Shown: positions 9,069 through 58,668 of the stretch, piece after piece
How the letters are laid out: each line of letters begins with the position of its first letter
Position numbering within the stretch: the stretch's first letter is position 1
Assembly (NCBI RefSeq): GCF_020103725.1
Contig: NZ_JAHXBG010000045.1
Span: 1-58,668 of the forward strand
DNA length: 58,668 nt
Direction: 5' to 3'
Source: Hyalangium gracile
Lineage (GTDB): Bacteria; Myxococcota; Myxococcia; Myxococcales; Myxococcaceae
Notes under the pieces: generated by a model
Database searches by the model: none
Told to the model about the DNA's origin: nothing
The model's input: the letters and a program-made list of their open reading frames with translations, nothing else
Made by a program: the position numbers and the translations under genes

Positions 9069-10025
9069 CTACCCCCTCGGTCGGTACGACATCGCCACGT
9101 CGCATCGCTCGTAGCGCGCCCCAAACAGCCGCATGATCTCGGCGTCGTGCACGAAGCCCCGCTTCTCATAGAGATGGATGGCCGCCGCGCACTTCTTGTT
9201 GGTCAGCAGATAGACCTTGCCGAAGCCCAGGCTGGAGGCGCGCTCCAGGGTCTTGGCGAGCAGGAACTCGCCGACCTTCAGGCCCCGGGCGCTCTTCAGG
9301 ACACCCATCTTGGTCAGCTCGACCCAGCCGTCCTTGGACACCATCAGGGCACAGGTCCCGACCACGCCCAGCTCCGGCGTCTCGGCGAACAGCACCACCC
9401 CGCCCTTGTCGAGGATCAGCTCGCGCGGCCTCGACAGGAGGGCGATGTCGTTCTCCTCGAGGGCGAACATGTCCTCGATCCATTCGGCGTTGATCCGATA
9501 GAAGGCGTCGGCCAGGTCGTCGGAGAAGTCACGCGCCCACATCGCGGGCGGACCGGCGGCCTCGATCCGGCTCAGCAGCGAGGACTCGGCCAGCCGCGCC
9601 TCCACCTGGGCCAGGCCCTGCATGAAATCGCCCGACAGCCCCTCGACCAGCGAGGCGGCGGCGGGCTCGATGCGCGGCAACAGCTGCGTCTGGATGCGGA
9701 CCATCAAGGCCTCGCCCTTCTTCGTCAGCGCCAGGCGCTTCGAGCGCTGGTCGCCCGGCGAGCGCTGCGCTTCGACGAAGTCTTCCAGTGTCCCGAGAGC
9801 GCGGGTCACCGTGGGTTGGGCCAACTGTAAGCGCTCGGCCAGCTCGCCCACCGTGATCGGGCCATGCAGGCGGATTGTCATCAGCAGCGAGATCTGGGCC
9901 GGCTGGACCGGCAGGTCCAGCGATCGGGCCACTTCGGCGGCGTCGGCCTGCATCCGCTCGGCCAGGCGCTTGAGCCGGCTGCCCAGGAAGCCCACGCCAA
10001 ACCCCGCCAGAAGATCGATTTCCAT
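9069..10025 (-). CDS. MarR-family regulator fused to a GNAT acetyltransferase
   Basis: A 318-residue two-domain protein. Residues about 10-150 are a MarR winged helix (LLMTIRLHGPITVGELAERL, then QPTVTRALGTLEDF and a wing with SPGDQRSKRLALTKKG). Residues about 165-318 are a GNAT fold (GVVGTCALMVSKDGWVELTK, LKVGEFLLAKTLERASSLGF, LYEKRGF). The ATG at 10025 is preferred to one six codons upstream because GGAG lies eight bases before it. Fusions of this architecture are known; the acetyltransferase substrate is unknown. A palindrome with ATAGC half-sites lies just upstream at 10041-10066, so autoregulation is likely. Confidence 0.85.
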   Translation of the reverse strand: MEIDLLAGFGVGFLGSRLKRLAERMQADAAEVARSLDLPVQPAQISLLMTIRLHGPITVGELAERLQLAQPTVTRALGTLEDFVEAQRSPGDQRSKRLALTKKGEALMVRIQTQLLPRIEPAAASLVEGLSGDFMQGLAQVEARLAESSLLSRIEAAGPPAMWARDFSDDLADAFYRINAEWIEDMFALEENDIALLSRPRELILDKGGVVLFAETPELGVVGTCALMVSKDGWVELTKMGVLKSARGLKVGEFLLAKTLERASSLGFGKVYLLTNKKCAAAIHLYEKRGFVHDAEIMRLFGARYERCDVAMSYRPRG

Positions 10026-10040
10026 GCCACGTCTCCATTT

Positions 10041-10066
10041 CATAGCGCGCTATATAGATAGCTATG
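10041..10066. promoter_or_regulatory. Palindromic operator upstream of the MarR-GNAT gene
   Basis: The site has outer inverted arms CATAGC (10041-10046) and GCTATG (10061-10066). Within it lie the perfect palindrome ATAGCGCGCTAT (10042-10053) and a second ATAGCTAT (10059-10066). The patch is far more AT-rich than its surroundings. Its position 16 nt from the start codon fits a MarR-type autorepressor site overlapping the promoter. Confidence 0.6.
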
Positions 10067-10172
10067 AAACGGGCCGGAGCGCAAGAGGGCCAAGCAGTTC
10101 TTCATCAGGTTCTGGGCGCGGATCCGCCTCGCGATGACGGAACTCCCGGAGCGGGCCCGGCGACTGGTTCCG

Positions 10173-10225
10173 AACTGGTATGACAAGCAGACCAGTTCAG
10201 ACCGGTCGCGCCCGACAGGGCCTCC
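10173..10225 (+). repeat. Interspersed palindromic repeat, copy 1
   Basis: Inverted arms AACTGGTATG and CAGACCAGTT (one mismatch) flank the spacer ACAAG. They are followed by a second conserved block ending CGACAGGGCCTCC. The same arrangement recurs at 14644-14697, and the left half recurs at 58577-58591. It lies between the MarR-GNAT promoter and the sigma-factor gene, 46 nt before the latter's start. Function unknown; see findings. Confidence 0.65.
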
Positions 10226-10271
10226 TTCCGCCCTGTAAGTCCCCGGCGCGTGCGGTGTCTGATGGGGCGAG

Positions 10272-10781
10272 ATGGATGCCACACGCCGCGAAGAGCTGTT
10301 CCGAACTTGGGCCCATGAGCACCTCGGCATCCTGCTCAAGGTGGCCCGGGCCTTCGCGCTCTCCCCCACGGATCGGGAGGATTTGCTGCAGGACCTGCTC
10401 TCCACGCTCTGGGAGGCGCTCCCCTCCTTCCGGGCGGGGAGCAAGGCGTCCACCTTCATCTACCGCGTGGCCCACAACCGCGCCCTCAACTGGCAGCGCA
10501 GCCGCACCCGGTACTGGCGGCGCATCCAGCCGCTGGAGGCGCTGCCCGATGCCGAGCTGCCAGGCCCCCCGGAGGACGACTCCCGCGAGCGGCTGACACT
10601 GCTCTACGAGGCCATCCACGCCCTGGCGCCCCTGGACCGGACGCTCGTCCTGCTCTCGCTCGACGGCCTGCCCTATAGCGAGATCGCCGAGGTGACGGGG
10701 CTGACCGAGAACCACATCGGCGTGCGGCTCACCCGGGCGCGCCAGCGGCTCAAGGACACACTCTCTCAGCGGAGGCAATGA
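10272..10781 (+). CDS. ECF-type RNA polymerase sigma factor
   Basis: A 169-residue sigma-70 family protein with only regions 2 and 4. Region 2 (about 12-80) shows SPTDREDLLQDLLSTLWEAL and ASTFIYRVAHNRALNWQRS, the usual core-binding and -10 recognition helices. Region 4 (about 108-162) shows RTLVLLSLDGLPYSEIAEVT and GVRLTRARQRLKD, the helix-turn-helix for -35 recognition. GGGGCGAG precedes the ATG. The gene overlaps or abuts the downstream membrane protein gene, as sigma/anti-sigma pairs do. Target promoters cannot be deduced. Confidence 0.9.
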   Translation: MDATRREELFRTWAHEHLGILLKVARAFALSPTDREDLLQDLLSTLWEALPSFRAGSKASTFIYRVAHNRALNWQRSRTRYWRRIQPLEALPDAELPGPPEDDSRERLTLLYEAIHALAPLDRTLVLLSLDGLPYSEIAEVTGLTENHIGVRLTRARQRLKDTLSQRRQ

Positions 10782-10783
10782 CC

Positions 10784-11398
10784 ATGGATCCCCTCGAAGC
10801 CGTGTGGAGCACCCAGGAGCAACACGCCGCGCGGGCCGTGCAGCGCTTCGCCGTCGAGGAACTCCTGCAAGGGCTGCGGCGCCGCCAGCGGCTGCGGAGC
10901 TTCGCACTCGTCTACGTCCTCCTGGCGGGGATGAGCACGCTTGTGCTCGCGGGTTATGTGGCCGCCACACGCCTGGCGGGGGACTGGGTGAGCCTGGCCG
11001 TGCTCACGCTGCTGCTGGTGCCGCTCTTCGTCCTCGTCTCCTCGCGGGTCCGGGCGTACACCGAGGAGCGGCGGGAAGCCAGACGCCTGGAGGACTCCGT
11101 GGCCACAGCGACCCGAGCCTCGCTCGCGGCGGTCGACTCGGAGCTCCGGGCAGCCCGGTACCTGCAGCGCGCCCAGCTCTTCACCGCCGCCGTCCTGCCC
11201 CTGGCCCTCTGGCGCGAGCACGCACTGGGACTCGCGAGCCCCTCGCACCTGTTGAGCCAGGCGCTCCTCTTCGGAGTCATGCTCGCGCTCGCCGCGGGAG
11301 TGCTGCACTACCGCGCCGTGCGCATCCTCCAGCCTCGCAGGGAGCGGCTGCACTCGCTCCTGGAGTCCCTGGAGAACCCGCTCCGGGAACCTCGTTGA
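10784..11398 (+). CDS. Membrane protein paired with the sigma factor, possible anti-sigma factor
   Basis: A 204-residue integral membrane protein with about four predicted helices: about 38-60 FALVYVLLAGMSTLVLAGYV, about 68-90 SLAVLTLLLVPLFVLV, and two near 130-175. A soluble N-terminal segment (QEQHAARAVQRFAVEELLQG) could bind the sigma factor, and a basic C-terminal tail follows. The ATG at 10784 has GGAGG eight bases upstream. An ATG two codons earlier overlaps the sigma stop codon but sits too close to that site. No zinc-binding HxxxCxxC anti-sigma motif is present, so the role rests on gene coupling alone. Confidence 0.6.
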   Translation: MDPLEAVWSTQEQHAARAVQRFAVEELLQGLRRRQRLRSFALVYVLLAGMSTLVLAGYVAATRLAGDWVSLAVLTLLLVPLFVLVSSRVRAYTEERREARRLEDSVATATRASLAAVDSELRAARYLQRAQLFTAAVLPLALWREHALGLASPSHLLSQALLFGVMLALAAGVLHYRAVRILQPRRERLHSLLESLENPLREPR

Positions 11399-11405
11399 CC
11401 CGGGC

Positions 11406-11441
11406 GTAGCCCAAGAGCGGACCTGCGCGCTCTGGGGCTAC
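11406..11441. terminator. Bidirectional hairpin between convergent genes
   Basis: GTAGCCC-A-AGAGCG (11406-11419) pairs with CGCTCT-G-GGGCTAC (11428-11441) across an 8-nt loop. It lies between the stop codons of two convergent genes and includes the stop of the gene at 11438, so it probably ends both transcripts. There is no long T-run. Confidence 0.6.
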
Positions 11442-12487
11442 TTGAGCCGGTAGGTCGCCACGACCGCGTCGTGGTCGGAGTGGAGGCGGCGCTCGTACTG
11501 CGTCCGGACGTGCTTCAACTCCGGGTCCCGGGTGTGCATCAGGTAGTCGAGCGTGCTCTTGCCGTGGGTCCCGACGTTGAGCTTGTTGTCGTAGACCACG
11601 TCGTTACCGAGCACCTTGTAGTGGTTGCGGTTGAAGTCGCCGCCCACCACGACCTTGTGCCCCTGCTTCTCGAAGCGCTCGACCATCGAGTCGAGCTGCG
11701 CCATGTGCTTCTTCCACATCTCCTGCCGCCAGGGGGTGGAGGGACGGTCCAGCTTGGACTTCGTCCAGGCGCCGGAGACGAGGTGCGTGTTCATCCGGAC
11801 GACCTCTTCCCCCGTCTCCTTGTTCTTCAGCTTCACCCAGGTGATGTACCGGTGCGGCGACACCTTGGCCTTGCCGTTGTGGGTGCGCTTGAAGCCCGAG
11901 TCCTGGAGGTCCCACTCGGACTTCTTCCAGGAGATCGGAACCGGGATGCGGAGGTTGCCGTCCTTCGGCATGTAGTGGCCCCACTCCTTGCCGAGCCCCT
12001 TGATCGCGTCGAAGTACCGGGAGGGGCCAATCTCCTGCCAGCCGATCAGATCGCCCTGCGCCGCGGCCTTGCGCACGTCGTGGACGACCTGGCTCTGCGG
12101 CATCTCCGGGTTGGATTTGATGTTCGCGGTCACCGTCCGGAACGTCCCGGTCTTGCCGGTGTCGCCCGCAGTGTTCGGCGCGTGGGTTCCGGTGCCACCG
12201 TTGCCTCCGTGCACCTGGCCGCCGCCCGGGTTGGAGCCTCCGCCCTCGAAGCGATCGCCGAGGTTGAGCTTGTTCCAGATCCAGCTGCCAACCTTCCCGT
12301 CCTCCTTGCGGTCATTGCGGTGCTCGAAGCGCTTCACCGCTTCGGCCGTCCGCTTGTCGTAGCGTCCGTCGGCGGGACCTTTGAGCAGCCCCTGCTCCTT
12401 CAGTTCGTTCTCGAGTTTCCGCACCGCCGGGCCGTGCGAACCGGCCTTCAGGATGACGGCCTTGGGACCAATCTTGTGATGTGCCAT
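11438..12487 (-). CDS. Peptidoglycan-binding domain fused to endonuclease/exonuclease/phosphatase (EEP) domain
   Basis: A 349-residue protein. Residues about 10-75 are a peptidoglycan-binding-like domain (LKAGSHGPAVRKLENELKEQ, DGRYDKRTAEAVKRFE). A Gly-rich linker with GGG/HGGNGGTG (about 80-115) follows. Residues about 118-349 are a DNase I/EEP fold with the metal and catalytic elements TANIKSN (Asn), IGWQEIG (Glu), MNTHLVSG (His), GGDFNRN (Asp/Asn) and SDHDAV (Asp-His). No Sec, Tat or lipoprotein signal is visible, although the first domain should act in the cell wall. It could cleave DNA or a phosphoester outside the cell. Without a signal it may be released by another route (inference). 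Confidence 0.8.
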   Translation of the reverse strand: MAHHKIGPKAVILKAGSHGPAVRKLENELKEQGLLKGPADGRYDKRTAEAVKRFEHRNDRKEDGKVGSWIWNKLNLGDRFEGGGSNPGGGQVHGGNGGTGTHAPNTAGDTGKTGTFRTVTANIKSNPEMPQSQVVHDVRKAAAQGDLIGWQEIGPSRYFDAIKGLGKEWGHYMPKDGNLRIPVPISWKKSEWDLQDSGFKRTHNGKAKVSPHRYITWVKLKNKETGEEVVRMNTHLVSGAWTKSKLDRPSTPWRQEMWKKHMAQLDSMVERFEKQGHKVVVGGDFNRNHYKVLGNDVVYDNKLNVGTHGKSTLDYLMHTRDPELKHVRTQYERRLHSDHDAVVATYRLK

Positions 12488-12690
12488 GCAGTGATTCTCG
12501 GTTTTTGAGGGTCCAAGGTTTCGTCCTCTTCCACCGAAATTTTTCCAGCCTCTCCGCCGCTCATCACTCGGCGCTCCATGTAAATCATGCTTAGCTGACT
12601 TAGAAAGTAATACGTGATAGCTGGCGTCCCCCGCAGTGCTTGCCCGCGCATGGACCCGAGGTGGAGTCCTGGCGCTCGGAGGTCGCCCCC

Positions 12691-14136
12691 ATGAAGAAAC
12701 CCTCGCGTTTCCCGGCCCTTGTCTTCGTGAGCGCCGTCTCGGCGTTCGCTTCCGGCTGTGGGTATGAAGGTCCCGGCCCCCAGGAGGGCGACGAGTCCCT
12801 GTCCACCGTGGGTGACGCGCTCGCCTGCAGCACGCGTGTCACCTACGGCGACCGGTGGATCCGTCCCTCCGGCCACCCGGCCCAGTACGACATCGCGGCG
12901 AATCTGGTGACGTGGGACGGCACCTGCGTCAACGAGGGCACCAACTCCTACGCCGTGCTCTCGAATGGCTGGAAGCCGTACTTCACCGGCAACAACGCCT
13001 GCGTGCTGGCGCTCGACACGGACTGCTCGGGCGCCACCACGTGCTCCACGCGCATCTCCTACAGCGCGGCGTGGCTGCCCCCCGCGGGGCACACGGCCCG
13101 GTTCGATGACGTGGGCGGACGCGTCTTCTGGGACCGGGGCTGCACCAACGAGGGCACCAACTCCTACGCGACCCTCTCCAACGGCTGGAAGCCGTACTTC
13201 ACCGGTAACAACAAGTGCGGCATGTCGTTCCGGTACACGGGCTGCGGCGGGCTGTACCAGAACCCCGTCGTCCCCGTGGGCTGCGCGGACCCGGGCGTCA
13301 TCCATGACGGGACGCGGTACGTGGCGGCCTGCACGTCGGGCGGCGCCGCCAACGCCTTCCCCCTTCGCACCTCCCAGGACCTGGTGAGCTGGACGTCCGC
13401 CGGCCACATCTTCCCGTCCACCGGCAAGCCCACGTGGGCCACGGGCGACTTCTGGGCGCCGGAGATCCACAAGGTGGGCACGCGCTTCATCGCGTACTAC
13501 ACCGCGCGGCACTCGAACGGAAAACTGTCCATCGGCGCGGCCACCTCGGCCAGCGCGCTGGGGCCCTTCACCGACCTGGGCCGGCCCCTGGTGCATGACA
13601 CCGCCATGGGCATGATTGACGCCACCTACTTCAAGGACACCGCCGGCACGCCGTACCTCGTGTGGAAGGCGGACGGCAACGCGGTGGGCCAGGCGACGCC
13701 CATCTATGGCCAGCAGCTGTCGGCGGACGGCCTGTCGTTGGTGGGCACGCGCCGCACGCTCATCAGCAACAACCTCGCCTGGGAGGGCGGCGTCGTCGAG
13801 GCGCCGTGGGTCGTCGCGCGGGGCGGCTACTACTACCTCTTCTACAGCGGCAACGCGTACTACAACAGCACCTACGCGGTGGGTGTGGCCCGCGCCACCA
13901 GCCCGCTGGGCCCGTACACGAAGCTCGGCGCGCCCATCCTCAAGACGGGCGCCGGGTGGGTGGGCCCGGGGCACAACTCGGTCGTCACCGGGCCCGGGGG
14001 CGACACGTACATGGTCTACCACGCGTGGGACAGCGCCCATACCGACCGCATGATGCTGGTCGACGCCATCACCTGGCCCAACGGCTGGCCCGCGGTGCCC
14101 GAGGGGCCCTCGGCCGACTCGCGGCCCATGCCGTGA
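12691..14136 (+). CDS. GH43-family glycoside hydrolase lipoprotein with duplicated N-terminal module
   Basis: A 481-residue lipoprotein with the ATG preceded by GGAGG. The signal peptide ends in the lipobox ASGC (Cys23). Residues 46-104 and 118-176 are two copies of a 59-residue module that share C(S)TR, GH-A, V-WD, NEGTNSYA and LSNGWKPYFTGNN and end in Cys. Residues about 190-481 form a five-bladed GH43 propeller. Visible are CADPGVIHDG (catalytic-base Asp about 200), GMIDATYF (Asp) and EGGVVEAPWV (acid Glu), with TGDFWAPEIH. It probably cleaves arabinan or xylan side chains at the cell surface. The paired modules may bind carbohydrate, but I do not recognise the family. Confidence 0.82.
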   Translation: MKKPSRFPALVFVSAVSAFASGCGYEGPGPQEGDESLSTVGDALACSTRVTYGDRWIRPSGHPAQYDIAANLVTWDGTCVNEGTNSYAVLSNGWKPYFTGNNACVLALDTDCSGATTCSTRISYSAAWLPPAGHTARFDDVGGRVFWDRGCTNEGTNSYATLSNGWKPYFTGNNKCGMSFRYTGCGGLYQNPVVPVGCADPGVIHDGTRYVAACTSGGAANAFPLRTSQDLVSWTSAGHIFPSTGKPTWATGDFWAPEIHKVGTRFIAYYTARHSNGKLSIGAATSASALGPFTDLGRPLVHDTAMGMIDATYFKDTAGTPYLVWKADGNAVGQATPIYGQQLSADGLSLVGTRRTLISNNLAWEGGVVEAPWVVARGGYYYLFYSGNAYYNSTYAVGVARATSPLGPYTKLGAPILKTGAGWVGPGHNSVVTGPGGDTYMVYHAWDSAHTDRMMLVDAITWPNGWPAVPEGPSADSRPMP

Positions 14137-14160
14137 GGCCGTAGCGAGCGCCCAGGAGAA

Positions 14161-14182
14161 CACCGGCCCGTGCTGGCCGGTG
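14161..14182 (+). terminator. Hairpin after the GH43 gene
   Basis: CACCGGCC (14161-14168) and GGCCGGTG (14175-14182) form a perfect 8-bp stem with a 6-nt loop, 25 nt after the GH43 stop codon. No U-tract follows. Confidence 0.45.
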
Positions 14183-14300
14183 CCGCTGGAGCCATCCAGC
14201 AGCTGCTTCTGCTCACACCGGCGGCGCACCTGGCGAGGAACCAGAAGTACCTTGCCCGGGGCGACTCCGTTTTCACGGCCCGCGGAGCGGGTGGCGGCGT

Positions 14301-14469
14301 TCAGCTCGACTCGTCCCCCCAGTTGCCCAAAAAGTCGCCCATGGTGAGTCGCCGCTTCACCGCTGCCACTGGCAACGGCATGGTCCGCTGCTTTCATCAA
14401 CTGCGTTTTCAAGTTGGTCAGTCCGCGGACGAAGACGCCAGCAGATAGCTCGTAGGCATTCAAAGACAT
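14301..14469 (-). pseudogene. DUF1993 protein remnant with internal deletion
   Basis: The ATG at 14469 opens with MSLNAYELSAGVFVRGLTNL and KTQLMKAADHA, the typical N-terminus of DUF1993 (DinB-like) proteins. About 35 codons later the similarity is lost. In another frame, shortly before 14301, the DNA reads MGDFLGNWGDESS and stop, which resembles the C-terminal 'GKxDFLG' of the same family. A normal member has about 165 residues, so the middle is missing. The flanks (14183-14300 and 14470-14643) hold no supportable gene, although a frame near 14560-14640 (DGGMQASGNIVDLPMECRPD) may be further decayed coding sequence. Confidence 0.45.
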
Positions 14470-14643
14470 GGCGCACCCCTGACCACCCGGGCTACGGCGA
14501 CTCCCACGGCTTCCATGTGCGCATCGGCTGGCCGGCCGCACGGGGTGTGCCTGGGGGAGCCTGGACTGCGCGCACGACGGCGGGATGCAGGCCTCTGGCA
14601 ACATCGTGGACCTGCCCATGGAGTGTCGGCCGGACCAGGGCCC

Positions 14644-14697
14644 AACTGGTATGACAAGCATACCAGTTCGCTCCGGCCCCGCCCGGACAGGGCCTCC
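14644..14697 (+). repeat. Interspersed palindromic repeat, copy 2
   Basis: Perfect inverted arms AACTGGTATG (14644-14653) and CATACCAGTT (14659-14668) flank ACAAG. A second block with CCGGCCCCGCCCGGACAGGG and CCTCC follows. It lies downstream of the GH13 gene, between it and the DUF1993 remnant. Compare 10173-10225 and 58577-58591. Confidence 0.7.
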
Positions 14698-14768
14698 TCT
14701 CTCGAGCTGGAGCAAGACTGGGAGCGGCGGCAAGCGACGCCCGCCGCCCCTGTCAGCCACCGGCGGCG

Positions 14769-17700
14769 CTACACCTTCTTGAACACCACGTAGCCCGCGG
14801 AGGGGATGTTCACCGGCGTCGCCCCTCCCCCGTTCAGCGTGGCGCCGAAGTTGCCGAAGTTCTCGCCGCCGTACGCCTGGGCGTCGCTGTTCAGCACTTC
14901 CTTCCAGTTCCCCGGCGGCAGCGGCATCTTGTAGCCGTTCAGGTCCTGCCGGTTCAGGCTGCCGACGACCAGGTACTCCTCGTCCCCCCACTTGCGGGTG
15001 AACGCCATCACCGAGTCGTCGTTGTGCGTGTACACCCGGTTCACCTCGGCGTCCGCGCGGAACGCCGGGCTCGAGTTGCGCAGCGCGAGCGCGTCCTTGA
15101 AGAACTGGAACTGCTGCCGCTGGGTGATGTCCAGCATCGCCTCCTTGCGCCGCGCCGGCTCCATGCCCGCCAGGGTGTTGAACACCTGCTTGTCCTGCGC
15201 CGACAGGCCCTTGTACGCCCCGTCCTGCTCGCGCGTGCGCGGCGGCAGCTCGAAGAGCCGCTCGTAGGTGGCCTTCCGCGTGTCGTTGAACGTCACCTGC
15301 TTCCAGTCCCAGTCCTTGCCCAGCGACTCCCAGCTCCAGTCGCTGTCCCACGTGGACGGGTTGCCCCACCGGAAGTCGTTCTGCGCGCCGAACTCATCGC
15401 CCTGGAAGAACATCGGGATGCCCGGCGACGCGAAGCCGATGCCCGCCGCGAACCGCGCCGCGTCGCGCGACCACTGCACCGGGAAGTCCGTGGGCTGGTT
15501 GCCCTCGGCCGTGTTCATCGTCCGCTGCGCGTTGCCCACCTCGTCGTGGTTGGAGATGATCGTCAGCGCCGTCTTCCACCCGTCCAGCCCGCGCGGGCTG
15601 GTGAGCAGGTTCACGAACGCGTCCATGTCCGTGCGCATGCCGCGCGCCGCCGCCTGCACCAGGCCCGGCTTGCTGTTGTCGTTGATCAGCCGGTGTTGGT
15701 ACTCGGTGTACCACTGCGCGTCGAAGCCGCCGCCCGTGCCGTCCGACTGCGCCGGCTTCGTCAGCGACGGGTCGTAGTCGAACTGCTCCGCCACCGTCCA
15801 CACGTTGGGGTTCAGGAAGTGCACCTGGCGGTTGATCTCCCGGAGCATCTCCCAGCCGTCCTTGCCGCCGGTGCCCTTGATGGGCTCGGTGAAGTCGAAG
15901 CGCAGGCCGTCGAACTTCAGCTCGGCGATCTGCTGCACCGCGTGGTCCACGAAGAGCTGCTTCACCTTGGGCTGGTGGTACGCCGGCACCGCGCCCCACG
16001 GCGTCTCCCGCTGCTCGTACTTGCCCGGCTCCTGCGACCAGTTGAAGTACGGGTTGCTGGGGCCGCCCATGTTCCACAGGCCGTTGTAGTCGCCGAACAC
16101 GTGGTTGTAGACGACGTCCGAGATGACGTTGAGCCCCTTGCCGTGCGCCTCGTCGATGAAGCGCTTGAGCGCCTCGGGGCCGCTCACCCACTTGCCGTTC
16201 TCGTCCTCGAAGCCCAGCGAGCTCTCCGACGCCAGGCCGTTGACGCCCAGGTAGCCCCAGTTGCGGCTGCCCTCCACCTCGTTGGTGGGCAGCAGCTCCA
16301 GCGTGTTGACGCCCAGCTCCTTGAAGTAGTCCAGCTTCTTCAGCAGGTCCTCGATGGTGGAGCGGTCCGAGTTCTTCGCCTCGCCCAGGAAGCTGCCCGC
16401 GTGCAGCTGGTACACCACCCACTTGTTGCGGTCCGTCTCGCGCGGCGCCTTGTCGTGCTTCCACTGGAACGTCGTCGGATCCGTGATGATGGAGCCGCGG
16501 AAGGACACGCCGCTCTCCTTGGTGATGAGGTCGCTCCACGGATCATTGAAGCCCGAGCCCCGGCGCTCCACCGCGCTGTACTTGCCGTCCCGGTTGGCGT
16601 CGTCGCGCAGCTTGAGCTGGCCCTGCGCGTCCTGCTCGAACACCTGGAACTCGTAGCGCAGCCCCACCAGCTTCTCGGGGTTGTTCACCAGCGCCGACCA
16701 GGCGCCCCCCTGGTTCGTCAGCTTGATGCGGCCGTCCGGCTCGATGTTCTTCGACCACAGGTCGTTGAACTTGCCGCCGTGCAGCTTGTCGATCAGCGTC
16801 GAGTCCATCTCGCCGATGCGCTGCAGCAACGCCTCCTTGCTCATCGGCTTGCCGTCCGCGTCCTTGAAGACCAGGTAGGCGCTGTGGGCGTCCTCCTCGT
16901 CGTCGATGTTGAAGCGCATCAGCTCCTGCACGCCGGGGAAGTAGCGGTTCTCCTCGCGGCCCTTCACCGGGTCCAGGTACAGCCGGTCGAGGCCGCGCTG
17001 CTCGCCCATCATCTCCCGGGCGTACGGGTCCGGCCGGTCGCTCGTGGCGCCCGTGGAGTCCACCACCTCGTAGACGTAGGACTTGCCCTCGAGCTGCTTC
17101 CAGCCGCCCTTCACCTCGGCGGCCCAGTCGCCGTTCTCCGCCCGCTGCATGGGGATGCGCTGGGTGTTGCCCTCCTGGTCCGTCACCCTCACCTGCACCG
17201 CGCGCGCGTCCGGCGCCCAGAGCTTGAAGGAGATGTCCTCGCCGCGCTTCTGCGAGCCCATCTCGTGGTACGTCGTCGGAGAGTAGGAGGCCGTGGGCTT
17301 GCTGAGGTCCAGCTTGAGGTTGCCCTCGCCCATCAGGCCCCACTGATCGTTGCCGCTGGGGCCGTCCACGGTGACGCCCCACTCCCAGTTACGCGGCAGG
17401 CCGTCATCCTGCAGCTCCACCGTGGCCTCCCACTTGCCGTTGCCCAGCGAGCGCATGGGGATGGAGCCGGCCTCCCACTGGTTGCTGAACTTGCCGGAGG
17501 CGTCCCAGCTGCCCTTCAGCTTCACGTCCGTGAGCGCCTTGTCGGGCCCGGCGTCGTAGACGAAGGTGACGATGCGCTTCTGCGGCTGGGCCACCGTGGC
17601 CTGGGAGGCACCCACCGCCGCCGGGGCCTGGGGGCCCGCCACGCCCTGCCGGGAGGCGGGCGCCTGGGTCTCGAAGCCGTCCGTGCCCCGCTTGCTCACC

Positions 17701-17879
17701 CGGGCGGTGGACTCGAAGCCGTCCTTGCTCTGCACCGCTCCGGTGGCCGCCTTCTTCGCCGAGGCCGCTGACGGCGTCTCCTTGCGCGGCTCCACGGCAT
17801 TCGAGGAGGCGTTGCCCTTCGTTGAAGCCGGCGTCTGGGCGGGGGTCCGGCCCTGGCGGTTGATCTTGGTGTCGCTCAT
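14769..17879 (-). CDS. GH13-family alpha-glucan-active enzyme (alpha-amylase/branching-enzyme-like)
   Basis: A 1036-residue protein. The ATG at 17879 is preferred over a GTG four codons upstream because GGAGG sits five bases before it. Residues 1-100 are disordered, rich in Ala/Ser/Thr/Lys, with two similar motifs (DGFESTARVSKRG and DGFETQAPASRQG) and no standard signal peptide. Two beta-sandwich domains follow (about 105-200 starch-binding-like, about 205-300 CBM48-like). The catalytic barrel spans about 480-900 with DVVYNH, GLRFDF (nucleophile Asp about 662), TVAEQF (acid Glu) and IISNHDEVGN. A C-terminal all-beta domain ends the protein. The four conserved regions are complete, so it should be active on starch or glycogen; the exact specificity is uncertain. 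An AT-rich promoter candidate lies at 17890-17950. Confidence 0.82.
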   Translation of the reverse strand: MSDTKINRQGRTPAQTPASTKGNASSNAVEPRKETPSAASAKKAATGAVQSKDGFESTARVSKRGTDGFETQAPASRQGVAGPQAPAAVGASQATVAQPQKRIVTFVYDAGPDKALTDVKLKGSWDASGKFSNQWEAGSIPMRSLGNGKWEATVELQDDGLPRNWEWGVTVDGPSGNDQWGLMGEGNLKLDLSKPTASYSPTTYHEMGSQKRGEDISFKLWAPDARAVQVRVTDQEGNTQRIPMQRAENGDWAAEVKGGWKQLEGKSYVYEVVDSTGATSDRPDPYAREMMGEQRGLDRLYLDPVKGREENRYFPGVQELMRFNIDDEEDAHSAYLVFKDADGKPMSKEALLQRIGEMDSTLIDKLHGGKFNDLWSKNIEPDGRIKLTNQGGAWSALVNNPEKLVGLRYEFQVFEQDAQGQLKLRDDANRDGKYSAVERRGSGFNDPWSDLITKESGVSFRGSIITDPTTFQWKHDKAPRETDRNKWVVYQLHAGSFLGEAKNSDRSTIEDLLKKLDYFKELGVNTLELLPTNEVEGSRNWGYLGVNGLASESSLGFEDENGKWVSGPEALKRFIDEAHGKGLNVISDVVYNHVFGDYNGLWNMGGPSNPYFNWSQEPGKYEQRETPWGAVPAYHQPKVKQLFVDHAVQQIAELKFDGLRFDFTEPIKGTGGKDGWEMLREINRQVHFLNPNVWTVAEQFDYDPSLTKPAQSDGTGGGFDAQWYTEYQHRLINDNSKPGLVQAAARGMRTDMDAFVNLLTSPRGLDGWKTALTIISNHDEVGNAQRTMNTAEGNQPTDFPVQWSRDAARFAAGIGFASPGIPMFFQGDEFGAQNDFRWGNPSTWDSDWSWESLGKDWDWKQVTFNDTRKATYERLFELPPRTREQDGAYKGLSAQDKQVFNTLAGMEPARRKEAMLDITQRQQFQFFKDALALRNSSPAFRADAEVNRVYTHNDDSVMAFTRKWGDEEYLVVGSLNRQDLNGYKMPLPPGNWKEVLNSDAQAYGGENFGNFGATLNGGGATPVNIPSAGYVVFKKV

Positions 17880-17979
17880 GTTCGCCTCCACAAAATCATG
17901 TGGGATAATGTATGGTGCCCGTATCTTCGCACCTTACCCATCCAAAGTTGCGTCTCTCCGGAGACAGAGTGTCGAAAAG

Positions 17980-28281: not shown

Positions 28282-28950
28282 TCAGGCCTTCTTGCCGCGT
28301 CCGTCACGGACGGCGGCCACGATGTGGGGGTAGGCGCCGCAGCGGCAGATGTTGCCGCACATGCCCTCGCGGATGTCCGCGTCGGTCTGGCCCCAGGGCT
28401 CGCTGGCGAAGCCCACCGCGCTCATGATCTGCCCCGGCGTGCAGTAGCCACACTGGAAGCCGTCGTGGGCGAGGAAGGACTGCTGCATCGGGTGGAGCTG
28501 ATCGCCCTGTGCGAGCCCCTCGATGGTGGTGATCTTCCTGCCCTGCTGCATCACCGCGAGCGTGAGGCACGAGTTCACGCGGCGACCGTCCACGAGCACG
28601 GTGCACGCGCCGCACTGGCCCATGTCGCAGCCCTTCTTCGTGCCGGTGAGCTGGAGCTGCTCCCGGAGCGCATCGAGCAGGGTGACGCGCGGCTCGACCT
28701 CGAGCGCGTGCTCCTTGCCGTTGACCTGGAGCTTGATGGGAACGGGGGGAACCGGGGGGCCCTCGATGCCCGGGGGCAGAGGGCTCGCCTCGGCGGTGCC
28801 GGGCAGGGAGAGGAGGCCGGTGGCGAGCAGGGCCCCGCCCACCACCGCGGTGCCGACGAACTCGCGTCGGGTCACCTTGCCATCTTCGAGGAATCCTGGC
28901 GTGCCGCCAGGCGCGCCATCGTCGTGGGGAGGCTGCTTCGGGTCGGACAT
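28282..28950 (-). CDS. paoA: Molybdenum hydroxylase 2Fe-2S subunit with Tat signal (PaoA/YagT-like)
   Basis: A 222-residue subunit. The start at 28950 has GGAGG upstream; an earlier in-frame start is less convincing. A Tat signal (TRREFVGTAVVGGALLATG, about 25-50) sends the folded complex to the periplasm. The ferredoxin domain has CDMGQCGACTVLVDG with a later Cys (first cluster). The second helical domain has CGYCTPGQ and CRCGAY (second cluster). Same order of genes as E. coli paoABC. This is the first gene of the operon; the region 28951-29100 upstream would hold the promoter. Confidence 0.85.
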   Translation of the reverse strand: MSDPKQPPHDDGAPGGTPGFLEDGKVTRREFVGTAVVGGALLATGLLSLPGTAEASPLPPGIEGPPVPPVPIKLQVNGKEHALEVEPRVTLLDALREQLQLTGTKKGCDMGQCGACTVLVDGRRVNSCLTLAVMQQGRKITTIEGLAQGDQLHPMQQSFLAHDGFQCGYCTPGQIMSAVGFASEPWGQTDADIREGMCGNICRCGAYPHIVAAVRDGRGKKA

Positions 28951-53126: not shown

Positions 53127-53591
53127 TCATCCCCCCTCGGGCAGCCCGGCGGCCTTCTTCACGGCCGCGCGGATGCGCGTGTACGTGCCGCAACGGCACA
53201 GGTTGCCCGCCAGGGACTGATCGATCTCGGCATCCGTGGGCTGGGGCTTGTTCTTCAGCAGCGCCGCCGCCGTCATGATCTGCCCCACCTGGCAGAAGCC
53301 ACACTGCGGCACGCCCATGTCCACCCAGGCGCGCTGCAGCGGGTGGTTGCCGTCCGGCGACAGCCCCTCGATGGTCGTCACCGACTTACCCTCCGCGCGG
53401 CGGATGGGCGTCACGCACGCGCGCACCACGCTGCCATCCACGTGCACGGTGCACGCACCGCACAGCGCCTGGCCGCAGCCGTACTTCGTGCCCGTCAGGC
53501 CCAGCACATCGCGCAGCGCCCAGAGCAGCGGCATTTCCGGATCGACATCGAGCTCCTGCTCGACGCCATTGATGCGAACTCGAATGCTCAC
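53127..53591 (-). CDS. Molybdenum hydroxylase 2Fe-2S subunit (IorA-like)
   Basis: A 154-residue subunit from a GTG with GGAGG upstream. The first cluster is [17 protein letters not shown] with a later Cys, the second CGFCQVGQ and CRCGTY. It lacks its own signal peptide, unlike the 2Fe-2S protein of the operon at 28282, so it likely rides with its Tat-tagged large subunit. It overlaps the cytochrome stop (GTGA) and ends 7 nt before the large subunit start. Confidence 0.87.
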
Positions 53592-54962: not shown

Positions 54963-57218
54963 TCAGCGATCCGCGTGGCACCAGCCCCCGCCAATCAGGC
55001 GGCAGGGCAGTGGCACGCGCGTGGGCACCAGGTGGTAGGGCGACACTCCAGCTCCAAGGACACCGGACCAGTTGTTGCCCCAGCCCACCAGACTGCCATC
55101 CGTCCGCAGCGCGTGGACATGAAGCCCACTGGCGGCGAGGGACGCCACCCCCGTCAACCCGGGCACCTGCGAGCCCCCGGGAGGAACGGCCAGCTCCGAC
55201 ATGAAGCCACGCTCGCCATGGAGGTTGCTGCCCACGTTCCAGACCGTTCCGTCCACGCGGAGCACCTGGACGGTGTTCCTGCTCCGAGCCACGCCCACCG
55301 CGTCCGAGAAGCCCACCACTTGCTGAGGCGGCGTCTCCTGTCCCGGGAGGCGGAGGGTCCACTGCCACACGGTGCCATCGGCAAGCAGGGCCACGAGGTC
55401 CGTGGACCTCAAGGCCACCGCCGTGACGTTCGCCAGCCCCTCCACCCGGGCCGGGGCGCGCGGCTGCCCGTCCCAGGCGCTGGAGTGGCCGCCCCAGCGC
55501 CATACGCTGCCGTCACTGCGCAGGGCCACCGAGAGGCCCCCGCTGGCATGAATGGCCACCACCCCTTCGAGCCCCTGCACCTGCACCGGCGTGGAGCGCA
55601 CCTGGGTCGACACATCCCCCAGCTGCCCATAGCTGTTGGCCCCCCAGGCCCACACCGTCCCGTCCGCACGCAACGCCAGCGAGTGGGCGCTACCCGCGGC
55701 CACGGCCACCGCATTCGACAACCCCACCACACCCCCTGGGGTAGCCCGGTCCTGCGCCGTTCCATCGCCCAGCTGGCCGCGCCCGTTCTGCCCCCAGGCC
55801 CAGACCGTCCCGTCCGCGCGCAACACCAGCGAGTGCTGGTCACCGGCAGCGCTCTTCACTGCGCCTTGCAGGCCCTGCACTCGCACCGGCGCAGGCTGGT
55901 GACTTCCTCCGAGCGGATCCGCCCCCCACGTCCACACCGAGCCGTCCGCCCGGACGGCCACCAGGTGTGCCTGCCCAGCCGCCGCCGCACGCACGTCCCT
56001 CAACCCCACCACCGGTGTGGGCGACATCCGACGATCCGTGCCGGTGCCGACCTCTCCCTCGGCGTTGGTGCCCCACGCCATCAAGGAACCATCCCGCCGC
56101 AGCGCCATCGAGTGGTTCATGCCCGCGCCCACCGCCACCACGCCGCGCAGTTCCGGCACCTGCCGGGGAGCGGTTCCCCGGTCCAGCGTCCCGTCCCCGA
56201 GCAGCCCGCCACTCGTGAGGCCCCACGTCCACACCGTCCCGTCCGCGCGCAGCGCCAGCACATGGTTCGGTCCCGCCGCCAGGGAGACCATGCCCGTCAG
56301 CCCGGGCACCTGCACCGGCGCGAACACCCTGTCACTCTCCAGCGCCGTACCGACCTGGCCCAGGGAGTTCTGCCCCCAGGCCCAGACCGAGCCATCCGCG
56401 CGCAGGGCATACGAAGTCTCCCCACGCGACTCGATGGCCACCACTCCCGTCAGTCCCGGCACCTGGATGGGCTGGAGCCGCGTGTCCTGCGTCCCATCGC
56501 CCAGCTGGCCCAGCAAGCCCTCGCCCCAGGCCCAGACCGTCCCGTCCGAGCGCAACGCCATCGAGTGGAACAAGCCCGCGGTCACCGCGACGACTCCCGT
56601 CAGTCCCTGGACCTGGACCGGGAGCGTCCGATCGACCGTCGTCCCATCACCGAGCTGTCCCGCGTAGTTCGAGCCCCACGTCCACACCGTCCCATCCGCG
56701 CGCGCCGCGACCGAGTGCGCGCACCCTGCTGCCACGGACACCGCCCCCGTCAGACTCGCCACCGTCACCCTCCCCGTCCGCGGCAGAGTCGTCCCATCTC
56801 CCAGCTGGCCCCACAGGTTGCCGCCCCAGGATTGCACCGTGCCGTCCTCGCTCAAGGCCAGCGAGTGGAACAGCGCGACGCAGCCGGACATGGAGACGGA
56901 GACGGCCTTCTTCATCCCCTGCACACGCTCAGGCGTGGGACTCACGACCTTACGCTCGGCCCACACCTCGAAATCCTCGCCCGCGCTGCTCCCCCACTGC
57001 CACAGGGAGCCGTCCTCCGCTACCGCCAGCGAGTAGCCTCCATTACCTGCCAGCACACGACGGGTCGACCTGCGCCGCTGGCTGTCCTGCGAGGCGCTCT
57101 CCGTGGGCGCCTCGGGCTCGCGGGGAGACTCGGCGCCGGCATTCACACTCCAGAGCAGGACGGCGAGTACGCCCGTCGTCCATTTCATCCGCGTTGCATA
57201 CCTGGGTGTCGCTGTCAT
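54963..57218 (-). CDS. Exported RCC1-repeat protein, 14 repeats
   Basis: A 751-residue protein with a signal peptide (MKWTTGVLAVLLWSVNAGAE region). Starts at 57218, preceded by GAGG, and 57188 are both possible. About 14 RCC1-type repeats of 48-52 residues follow, with the pattern 'vaaG..HslalraDGtVWaWGxNxxGQLGDGt': for example VWTWGSNYAGQLGDGTTVDR and VWAWGQNGRGQLGDGTAQDR. Two seven-bladed propellers would fit. The DNA of the repeats is also alike, so recombination may change their number. The family is common in myxobacteria; the role is unknown, possibly surface binding. Confidence 0.85.
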   Translation of the reverse strand: MTATPRYATRMKWTTGVLAVLLWSVNAGAESPREPEAPTESASQDSQRRRSTRRVLAGNGGYSLAVAEDGSLWQWGSSAGEDFEVWAERKVVSPTPERVQGMKKAVSVSMSGCVALFHSLALSEDGTVQSWGGNLWGQLGDGTTLPRTGRVTVASLTGAVSVAAGCAHSVAARADGTVWTWGSNYAGQLGDGTTVDRTLPVQVQGLTGVVAVTAGLFHSMALRSDGTVWAWGEGLLGQLGDGTQDTRLQPIQVPGLTGVVAIESRGETSYALRADGSVWAWGQNSLGQVGTALESDRVFAPVQVPGLTGMVSLAAGPNHVLALRADGTVWTWGLTSGGLLGDGTLDRGTAPRQVPELRGVVAVGAGMNHSMALRRDGSLMAWGTNAEGEVGTGTDRRMSPTPVVGLRDVRAAAAGQAHLVAVRADGSVWTWGADPLGGSHQPAPVRVQGLQGAVKSAAGDQHSLVLRADGTVWAWGQNGRGQLGDGTAQDRATPGGVVGLSNAVAVAAGSAHSLALRADGTVWAWGANSYGQLGDVSTQVRSTPVQVQGLEGVVAIHASGGLSVALRSDGSVWRWGGHSSAWDGQPRAPARVEGLANVTAVALRSTDLVALLADGTVWQWTLRLPGQETPPQQVVGFSDAVGVARSRNTVQVLRVDGTVWNVGSNLHGERGFMSELAVPPGGSQVPGLTGVASLAASGLHVHALRTDGSLVGWGNNWSGVLGAGVSPYHLVPTRVPLPCRLIGGGWCHADR

Positions 57219-57549: not shown

Positions 57550-58482
57550 ATGCGCCGCTTCCTGTGGACAGCCCTCCTCGTCCTGTGTGCCTCCGCCTGT
57601 TCCGAGGATCCCAAGCCGCCCCCCACCGACATGCCTGATGCGGGCGAGCTGCCCGATGGCGGACTGCCCGATGGCGGACTGCCGGACGCGGGGACGGATG
57701 GAGGAACCACCCCGACCAGCTCCCACGGCTCGGGCAAGGTGCCCTGCGAGAGCACGGGCACGGTGGCCAACGCCACCACGACGTACACCTACTGTGTCAC
57801 GACCGTCGCCGGCTCCCAGCTCAAGATCATCGAGCCTCAGGACACCACGCCCGGCCAGCCGCTGCGGCTGGCCATCTACCTGCACGGTGACGGAGCGCGC
57901 ACGCACGATAACAACACCGCCCCGCGCATCCAGGCACCATGGACCTTCACCCACCGCACGCTCTACGTCTCGGCGCGAGCGCCCAACAAGTGCGCGTGGT
58001 GGACCAAGCCGACAATCACCACCTGCGTCGACGACTCGGGCCCCGAGGCGAGGGACCTCGAGGGCCTGAACGCCGAGGTATTCGTGCAGGTGCTCAACGC
58101 CCTGCGCGGGGGCTGGGATCTGCTCGATGAGCCCATCCTCTTCGGAGGCTCCTCGGGCGGCGCGGTCTTCCTCACGGCGAGCTTCCTGCCGAAGTACGGC
58201 CACCAGTACCGTGGCGTCTACGCCCTCGGCTGCGGCGGCGAGGCGTCGTGGTCGGGCAAGCTCGACTGGGACAGCACCCAGCCCGCGCTGCGTGGGCCGA
58301 CGAAGCTCGTCTACACGTACGGCGATCTGGACCCGTACCTCGCCGACATCCAGGGCAGCGTCTCCTTCTTCGGCGCGCGTTTCTTCCCCGTCGAAGAGAC
58401 GATCGTGCCCAACGCGGCCCACTGCCAGTTCGACCACGTCGGCCGCGTGACCGAGGTCTGGGGACAGGCCACGGGCAACTAA
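57550..58482 (+). CDS. Lipoprotein with alpha/beta-hydrolase (esterase-like) fold
   Basis: A 310-residue lipoprotein (signal MRRFLWTALLVLCASAC). A linker with tandem DGGLPDGGLPDAGTDGG follows. The hydrolase domain has LRLAIYLHGDG (oxyanion region), LFGGSSGGAVFL (nucleophile Ser in GxSxG), TYGDLDPY (possible Asp) and PNAAHCQFDH (His). The order Ser-Asp-His fits PHB-depolymerase/esterase-like proteins. The substrate is unknown; it probably acts at the outer surface. Confidence 0.75.
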   Translation: MRRFLWTALLVLCASACSEDPKPPPTDMPDAGELPDGGLPDGGLPDAGTDGGTTPTSSHGSGKVPCESTGTVANATTTYTYCVTTVAGSQLKIIEPQDTTPGQPLRLAIYLHGDGARTHDNNTAPRIQAPWTFTHRTLYVSARAPNKCAWWTKPTITTCVDDSGPEARDLEGLNAEVFVQVLNALRGGWDLLDEPILFGGSSGGAVFLTASFLPKYGHQYRGVYALGCGGEASWSGKLDWDSTQPALRGPTKLVYTYGDLDPYLADIQGSVSFFGARFFPVEETIVPNAAHCQFDHVGRVTEVWGQATGN

Positions 58483-58576
58483 GCAGGTCCGAAGAAGCTC
58501 CTGCACACAAGAGAGCGGCGCCTGCCCCAGGGGAACGGACTGACCAGGGAGACCCCCTGGGAGCGAACCGGTCCCC

Positions 58577-58591
58577 AACTGGTATGACAAG
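58577..58591 (+). repeat. Interspersed palindromic repeat, copy 3, left half only
   Basis: AACTGGTATGACAAG matches the left arm and spacer of the repeats at 10173 and 14644. The right arm is missing because a different sequence begins at 58592. The stretch before it (58483-58576) has no gene. Confidence 0.65.
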
Positions 58592-58668
58592 GAGCCTGTC
58601 GAAATAAGCTGTAGGGTAACGTAGGAGGTAGGTGACAAGGGGATCGACTTGGAAGGTAGGGCGTGGTT
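58592..58668. mobile_element. Probable insertion-sequence end at the window edge
   Basis: From 58592 the sequence (GAGCCTGTCGAAATAAGCTG onward) breaks the palindromic repeat. It is AT-richer and looks like a terminal inverted repeat plus leader of an IS. Only 77 nt are in the window, so no transposase can be read and the family stays open. Confidence 0.4.

Follow-up and report, generated by a model that had tools for sequence, protein, structure and literature searches.

A short palindrome that recurs throughout the genome of Hyalangium gracile belongs to a dispersed, mainly intergenic family and is also part of a multi-copy gene for a FadR-like protein of the GntR type. We favor, with about even confidence, the view that the palindromes were dispersed with mobile GntR units and that the palindrome is most likely the binding site of the GntR protein.

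The palindrome family and its copies in the window

The window (the whole stretch of 58,668 nucleotides that was analyzed) contains exact matches to AACTGGTATGACAAG at 10173, 14644, and 58577, the last a half copy, just as a preliminary description of this DNA had reported; at up to three mismatches the expectation from shuffles is 0.32, and none of 100 shuffles reached three matches. That these might be the only copies is contradicted by the 11.7-Mb genome (a draft of 81 contigs), in which we counted 210 copies at one mismatch or fewer and none with the reversed control. Since 105 copies lie on each strand, the common orientation of the window copies, which had been put forward as a feature, carries no meaning. 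The same 15-mer occurs 41 times in H. versicolor (G006) and zero to one times in each of five other Hyalangium genomes. Palindromes of an AACCTGT type are found as well, both in H. gracile and in H. versicolor. Of the nine matches in named genomes, two had unrelated flanks and were taken as chance, one being in a Klebsiella MAG and the other in an alphaproteobacterial MAG; among the virus contigs searched the GntR protein had no relative and the palindrome pattern no match.

The first window copy (10173..10197, plus strand, AACTGGTATGACAAGCAGACCAGTT) has the structure AACTGGTATG-ACAAG-CAGACCAGTT and lies between divergent genes at 9069-10043 (minus strand) and 10272-10781 (plus strand). The second (14644..14668, plus strand, AACTGGTATGACAAGCATACCAGTT) has a 5-nt loop and lies between convergent genes at 12661-14136 (plus strand) and 14769-17891 (minus strand). 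The symmetry ascribed to the arms is perfect over 10 bp in the second copy, whereas the 10-bp arms of the first differ at one position. With their less conserved surroundings the two copies extend over 10143..10230 and 14614..14701 (both plus strand); an 87-nt piece of the former folds at -46 kcal/mol (z -4.36), and a 107-nt piece of the latter gives a z of -3.16. Both stretches include the trailing block ACAGGGCCTCC, exact at 10215-10225 and 14687-14697. The block had been described as conserved together with arms and spacer, but over 70 classed copies only the core is conserved, and ACAGGGCCTCC alone at one mismatch is near chance (five found against 2.35 expected).

The third copy consists of left arm and loop (58577..58591, plus strand) and is interrupted after the loop by the end of an IS1182-family element (58592..58668, plus strand), which reaches the end of the contig. 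Its left part, of the group I type (58483..58591, plus strand), starts with GCAGGTCCGAAGAAG, directly next to the stop codon (58480-58482) of the gene at 57550-58482, and this start is similar to left ends resembling inverted repeats that some longer copies have. All ten IS-interrupted palindromes that we found are cut at or beside the same loop, and uninterrupted palindromes are the rule among the copies examined. Partial transposase proteins of the IS1182 type matched NF033551 at E values of 9.7e-40 (B) and 2.2e-15 (A), below the 270-bit cut-off, and contained domains PF13751 and PF05598; the transposase was assigned on another copy of the element, at L085, where a partial protein matched PF05598 and NF033551. 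The other ends of two IS elements were not seen among the contig ends fetched, a subset of those of the 81 contigs.

Conservation is concentrated in the core. Among the 70 classed copies, which were gathered with the exact 15-mer so that conservation of the core is inflated, the right arm, outside the search word, had a mean majority frequency of 0.94-0.98, and the 40 nt on either side of the core one of about 0.65-0.75. A profile with the core masked recovered the exact core in 61 of 64 matches, the searched sequence itself having been collected by that core. A set of 31 distinct palindromes has 31 cells with changes on both sides, against a shuffle mean of 17.5, and 87.1% pair, against 79.7% in shuffles (in both cases 0 of 500 shuffles as high); the counts of pairs changed on both sides and of pair types were not above shuffles (209 and 197 of 500), and all these statistics ignore the relatedness of the copies. 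We infer that selection acts on the palindrome core. Some single copies fold as long hairpins. A conserved outer stem was considered and rejected: when 35 chosen copies were combined into a consensus, only an apical hairpin had support.

We examined the context of 74 of the 210 copies, 69 of which lie outside the GntR gene; the dispersed, mainly intergenic family that had been proposed is thus confirmed. Positions between convergent genes are in excess among the 68 copies whose context was called, with five further copies at sequence edges: 28 were convergent, 31 tandem, and nine divergent, against about eight, 42, and 18 expected from the numbers of spacers in 800 kb of three genomes (G004, G005, and G020). 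Four of these 68 apparently intergenic copies in fact lie within a GntR open reading frame that the gene caller had missed (L014, L042, L047, and L061; that at L050 was called), leaving 27 convergent, 28 tandem, and nine divergent. Copies inside a conserved gene had been named as a possible objection, and five of the 74 do lie inside one gene, which, however, is the very unit that is dispersed.

The GntR gene unit

Around five of the first 70 loci the palindrome sits in the 3' part of a GntR open reading frame, which is borne on a dispersed repeat of about 1.4 kb. The outer flanks of these five units differ, and the unit encodes one recognizable protein. Its N-terminal winged helix-turn-helix matches PF00392 (E 1.6e-13; 50.5 bits, cut-off 27), and its C-terminal domain has no match in Pfam. 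The predicted structure (pLDDT 84.6) has a FadR-like helical C-terminal domain, and the best fold match is E. coli FadR (1hw1; E 2.8e-7, TM 0.64, 17% identity).

At E 1e-15 the gene has 17 matches in H. gracile, 44 in another Hyalangium (G005), nine fragments in G002, four each in G006 and G009, three in G020, and one each in G013 and G018, about 83 in all; 26 of the 34 genomes, G001, G003, and G004 among them, have no match at this threshold. The palindrome was present in all 25 copies that could be anchored, from six genomes, out of 28 loci examined, and it belongs to GntR genes in other genera too. In 24 of the 25 it lies within the open reading frame; at L347 it follows the stop codon, and in all three G020 copies it is read in another frame, which argues that it is kept at the level of DNA. 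Its loop has a single orientation relative to the gene in the anchored copies. The single copy of G013 contains TGGT-N3-ACCA, and at L333, the distant match in G018, the palindrome is absent at up to six mismatches.

Solitary palindromes occur in gene-bearing genomes (two in 400 kb of G005 and two in 200 kb of G020), and none was found in genomes that lack the gene (200 kb of G004, 83 kb of G001 loci, and 81 kb of G003 loci). The solitary sites of G005 and G020 differ from those genomes' own gene copies at inner positions.

The suggestion that the palindrome is mobile gains indirect support from the strong differences in copy number among congeners and from the five units with different outer flanks. 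A clean empty site or target duplication was obtained neither at the two window copies nor at the L247 copy at 17258, because the window and L247 stretches differ from their relatives by more than the element. In the empty-site comparison the L052 region was poorly conserved.

Possible roles of the palindrome

We infer that the GntR protein binds the palindrome and that the unit moves by transposition. The palindromic site would belong to a dispersed, presumably mobile, GntR gene unit; if it is the protein's putative binding site, the unit would sow binding targets of the regulator it encodes across genomes, and copies would survive mainly at the 3' ends of genes, where they may do least harm. 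Separately, IS1182-family elements insert at the loop. Several observations run against parts of this reading. The palindrome lies in the 3' part of the open reading frame and not in a promoter, its loop orientation is fixed to the gene, and species specificity is loose, as judged by the solitary sites of G005 and G020 and the AACCTGT-type palindromes. As to a mobile unit, its limits were judged by eye and from few copies. More tentative still, and in our judgment rather unlikely, is a selfish transcription factor: a mobile FadR-like gene that disperses its own candidate binding site to gene ends in the hundreds, with the protein and its site co-diverging between lineages, and so rewires or organizes the host chromosome.

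Alternatively, the palindrome could serve a transposon structurally, as a hairpin or cruciform that movement requires, with the GntR protein a non-binding passenger or regulator and the short copies MITE-like and moved by some other transposase. We consider this unlikely but deserving of weight. Of the 61 group I copies, eight have an inverted-repeat-like left end, 12 a right end, and two both (AGGTCCGAAGAAG and CTTCTTCGGACCT ends), against 0 left and 1 right in shuffles; by eye, some long units of H. gracile show TTCAGGGAAG-type ends and some G005 units similar inverted ends. The constant orientation of the loop and the insertion of IS1182 there in all ten cases also fit. Yet most group I copies have no recognizable ends while their core is conserved, and a limited search found no transposase linked to the GntR units.

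A role at the RNA level, in which the palindrome would form a 3' hairpin that terminates or stabilizes transcripts of convergent and tandem genes, is improbable. The excess of convergent copies and the fold z of five pieces (-3.43, -1.71, -4.36, -3.16, and -1.03) would agree with such a role, but the palindrome's place inside the GntR open reading frame, its strong lineage restriction, and the lack of any Rfam match at the gathering threshold in six sources speak against it. The convergent bias may instead stem from selection against insertions into promoters; known REPs are likewise biased, by the account in PMC3733652.

Very improbable is a classical REP/REPIN family mobilized by a RAYT (Y1 transposase), which size, palindromic core, copy number, and mainly intergenic 3'-end location would fit, since PF01797 had no match in the draft genome (the positive control matched in five of 14 known genomes). 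Hardly credible is that the palindromes are IS1182 landing sites and nothing more: all ten IS copies lie at the loop, and IS1272, a member of the IS1182 family, reportedly targets inverted repeats (PMC5678879), but most of the copies examined are uninterrupted, and GntR genes of other genera contain the palindrome too.

Comparison with known systems

To our knowledge, the dispersed palindromes of bacteria either come with RAYT transposases or lack a recognized partner. Here the partner is instead a multi-copy, FadR-like regulator whose gene contains the site, and whether a mobile element can seed sites for a DNA-binding protein of its own thereby becomes directly testable.

Rickettsia palindromic elements are palindromic repeats that occur in frame inside genes. 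The Hyalangium palindromes can likewise be read in frame inside genes, but the coding copies found all lie in one protein family, which is itself dispersed. Like MITEs, some longer copies have inverted-repeat-like ends; unlike them, most copies have none, and conservation lies in the internal palindrome. In FadR-type operators TGGT and ACCA are 3 nt apart. The resemblance to such sites that had been noticed in the window holds for the half-sites (AACTGGT and ACCAGTT) and extends to the multi-copy gene around the site, which encodes a GntR-domain protein with a FadR fold. It does not hold for the spacing, which is N11 in the H. gracile copies, and the sites number in the hundreds and lie away from the promoter of the regulator.

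REPs and REPINs are described as high-copy short palindromes, mostly intergenic and often between convergent or tandem genes, with a family of RAYT genes that shares the palindrome (PMC3116915, PMC3733652). As far as these accounts go, the Hyalangium family is alike in its many short, imperfect, mainly extragenic palindromes, but differs in that the linked gene is GntR/FadR-like, the palindrome lies inside that open reading frame, and no PF01797 was found; no GTAG or CGTC tag is apparent to the eye beside the core, and the ends of the element are poorly defined. Finally, the insertions at one loop recall what is described for IS1272 (PMC5678879), an IS1182-family element in a palindrome in either case. 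In the present case the elements hit a dispersed repeat, with one end seen per IS, and the family offers a natural target set for learning how IS1182 elements choose palindromes.

A dispersed palindrome and its surroundings

The palindromic sites noted in the preliminary description at 10173, 14644 and 58577 of the window are all present as described, and the family extends far beyond these three. In the H. gracile genome (11.7 Mb, 81 contigs), a search with AACTGGTATGACAAG allowing at most one mismatch returned 210 copies, as 105 forward and 105 reverse matches, and its reversed control returned 0. Among the 100 matches listed, every copy was exact and all were located on contigs 1-10. The same word was present in seven of the 59 genomes searched, H. 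gracile included, with 41 matches in H. versicolor (G006) and one or two in each of five others; where genomes were named, seven of nine matching stretches belonged to H. versicolor H56D21.

A 25-bp core is common to the copies and has two principal versions, ...CAGACCAGTT and ...CATACCAGT; the flanks in which it is embedded are of lower conservation. The right arm, which lies outside the word used to collect copies, had a mean majority frequency of 0.983 in group I (n = 52) and 0.944 in group II (n = 18); the values for the adjoining 40 nt on each side were 0.655 and 0.649, and 0.692 and 0.746, respectively. Some longer copies carry inverted-repeat-like ends (left 8, right 12, both 2; n = 61). 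At the end of H. gracile contig 8 (locus L186), two palindromes with a different loop, ACAGC, are neighbors at 253-277 and 313-337. Synteny with H. versicolor breaks at both intact window copies (10085-10230 and 14151-14742), where the flanks match different H. versicolor contigs.

With a simple codon-based gene caller, 28 of 74 copies were assigned to convergent, 31 to tandem and 9 to divergent spacers, with 5 at edges and 1 within an ORF. Four copies called intergenic are really inside a GntR ORF that the caller missed, and the corrected intergenic counts are 27 convergent, 28 tandem and 9 divergent. In three other genomes (G004, G005 and G020), 800 kb contained 47 convergent, 244 tandem and 101 divergent spacers; relative to this background, convergent spacers are over-represented and divergent ones under-represented among the copies. 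A similar bias is described for published REPs (PMC3733652).

Elsewhere in the window, an inverted repeat, TTTCATAGC...GCTATGAAA (10038-10069), lies where a MarR-GNAT fusion gene (9069-10043, minus strand) starts; mostly retained in H. versicolor (L249), it is a possible operator of the MarR type. A stretch at 55491-56882 holds 6-7 direct repeats, 93-129 bp long and mostly spaced at 150 bp, which perhaps encode an RCC1-type repeat protein, at a guess. Two similar segments (28413-28544 and 53264-53392) are separated by ~25 kb.

A multicopy GntR gene containing the palindrome

Among the first 70 loci, L014, L042, L047, L050 and L061 have in common a repeat of ~1.4 kb, and their outer flanks differ. 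The repeat codes for a GntR protein (PF00392), and the palindrome is inside the ORF. The best structural match of the protein model (257 residues, pLDDT 84.6) was E. coli FadR, which was also among 28 solved GntR-type sequences matched in a profile search. At a threshold of E 1e-15, the gene had matches in eight of 34 genomes: 17 in H. gracile (14 at 93-100% identity, two at 64-66% and one fragment with stops), 44 in G005, nine fragments in G002, four each in H. versicolor and G009, three in G020, and one each in G013 (with a stop) and G018.

We checked 28 of these approximately 83 matches for the palindrome. It was present in all 25 loci in which the anchor was located, inside the ORF in 24 and immediately 3' of the stop in L347. 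Two loci lacking the anchor, L349 (G009) and L331 (G013), do have a palindrome; in the third, L333 (G018), none was found at up to six mismatches. Within the sampled genomes and loci, palindrome and gene are associated. The arms were AACTGGT...ACCAGTT in six of six H. gracile copies, GACTGGT...ACCAGTT in three of four from H. versicolor (AACCTGT...ACAGGTT in the other), AACCTGT...ACAGGTT with at most one arm mismatch in G005 (n = 6), AACCTGT or AAGCTGT with ACAGGTT or ACAGCTT in G020 (n = 3), and AACCGGT...ACAGGTT in G009 (n = 3). The three G002 copies (L332, L350 and L353) carry two or three imperfect palindromes in tandem, spaced 123 nt apart. In all three G020 copies the palindrome is read in a different frame, and its conservation is therefore at the DNA level. 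Pairing was seen in 87.1% of cells across 31 distinct palindromes, versus a shuffle mean of 79.7%, and both-side changes occur in 31 cells versus 17.5 in shuffles (0-10 in slid structures); counts of pairs and of pair types were not above shuffles. Such symmetric change fits a hairpin and the operator of a dimer equally well.

Solitary copies and IS insertions

Small samples yielded two clear solitary palindromes in 400 kb of G005, two in 200 kb of G020 and none in 200 kb of G004, a genome without a gene match; reversed controls at seven mismatches gave 0, 0 and 1. In non-random samples, G002 had one solitary copy (L284); in G001 and G003, which likewise lack gene matches, loci totalling 83 and 81 kb contained no such copy. 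Genome-wide, G004 had one match to the H. gracile word. In both G005 and G020, solitary sites are similar, not identical, to those in the gene copies of the genome concerned, and AACCTGT-type sites are present in H. gracile and H. versicolor too; gene and site therefore correspond loosely from species to species.

The third window copy passes at 58592 into GAGCCTGTCGAAATAAG, the end of an element designated IS A; CAGACCGTCGAAATACGG, from a second element, IS B, was found at other contig ends. Both encode IS1182-type (partial) proteins, and all ten copies found, five of each, interrupt the palindrome, a single end being seen for each IS. The IS A junction is directly 3' of ACAAG or CTTGT in all five. 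In four IS B copies the first six IS bases are identical to the arm after the loop, so the position of the junction has an uncertainty of six bases there; in L089, the fifth, a one-base difference indicates the loop edge. Inverted repeats are reported as a target of IS1272, also of the IS1182 family (PMC5678879).

Interpretation and known systems

The fold, half-site resemblance and association with the gene suggest that the GntR protein binds the palindrome. Our best explanation, that palindromes are dispersed with presumed mobile GntR units, probably as predicted binding sites of the protein, stands at an even balance, having been lowered because of the looser species match and small samples. 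These same considerations raised a rival, now possible if rather doubtful, in which the palindrome is a structural part of a transposon and the GntR protein a passenger or a regulator that does not bind it. They lowered the proposal of a selfish transcription factor, a mobile FadR-like gene dispersing its own predicted binding site, which we also regard as rather doubtful.

In the titles and opening abstract lines of literature on repeats in Myxococcus, Hyalangium and myxobacteria generally, on multicopy GntR genes in Myxococcus and on GntR genes with palindromic repeats, a body including few subscription journals, no matching description was found. An older repeat, RMX, belongs to Myxococcus xanthus. 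Both the spacing and the position of the palindrome described here argue against a classical FadR operator.
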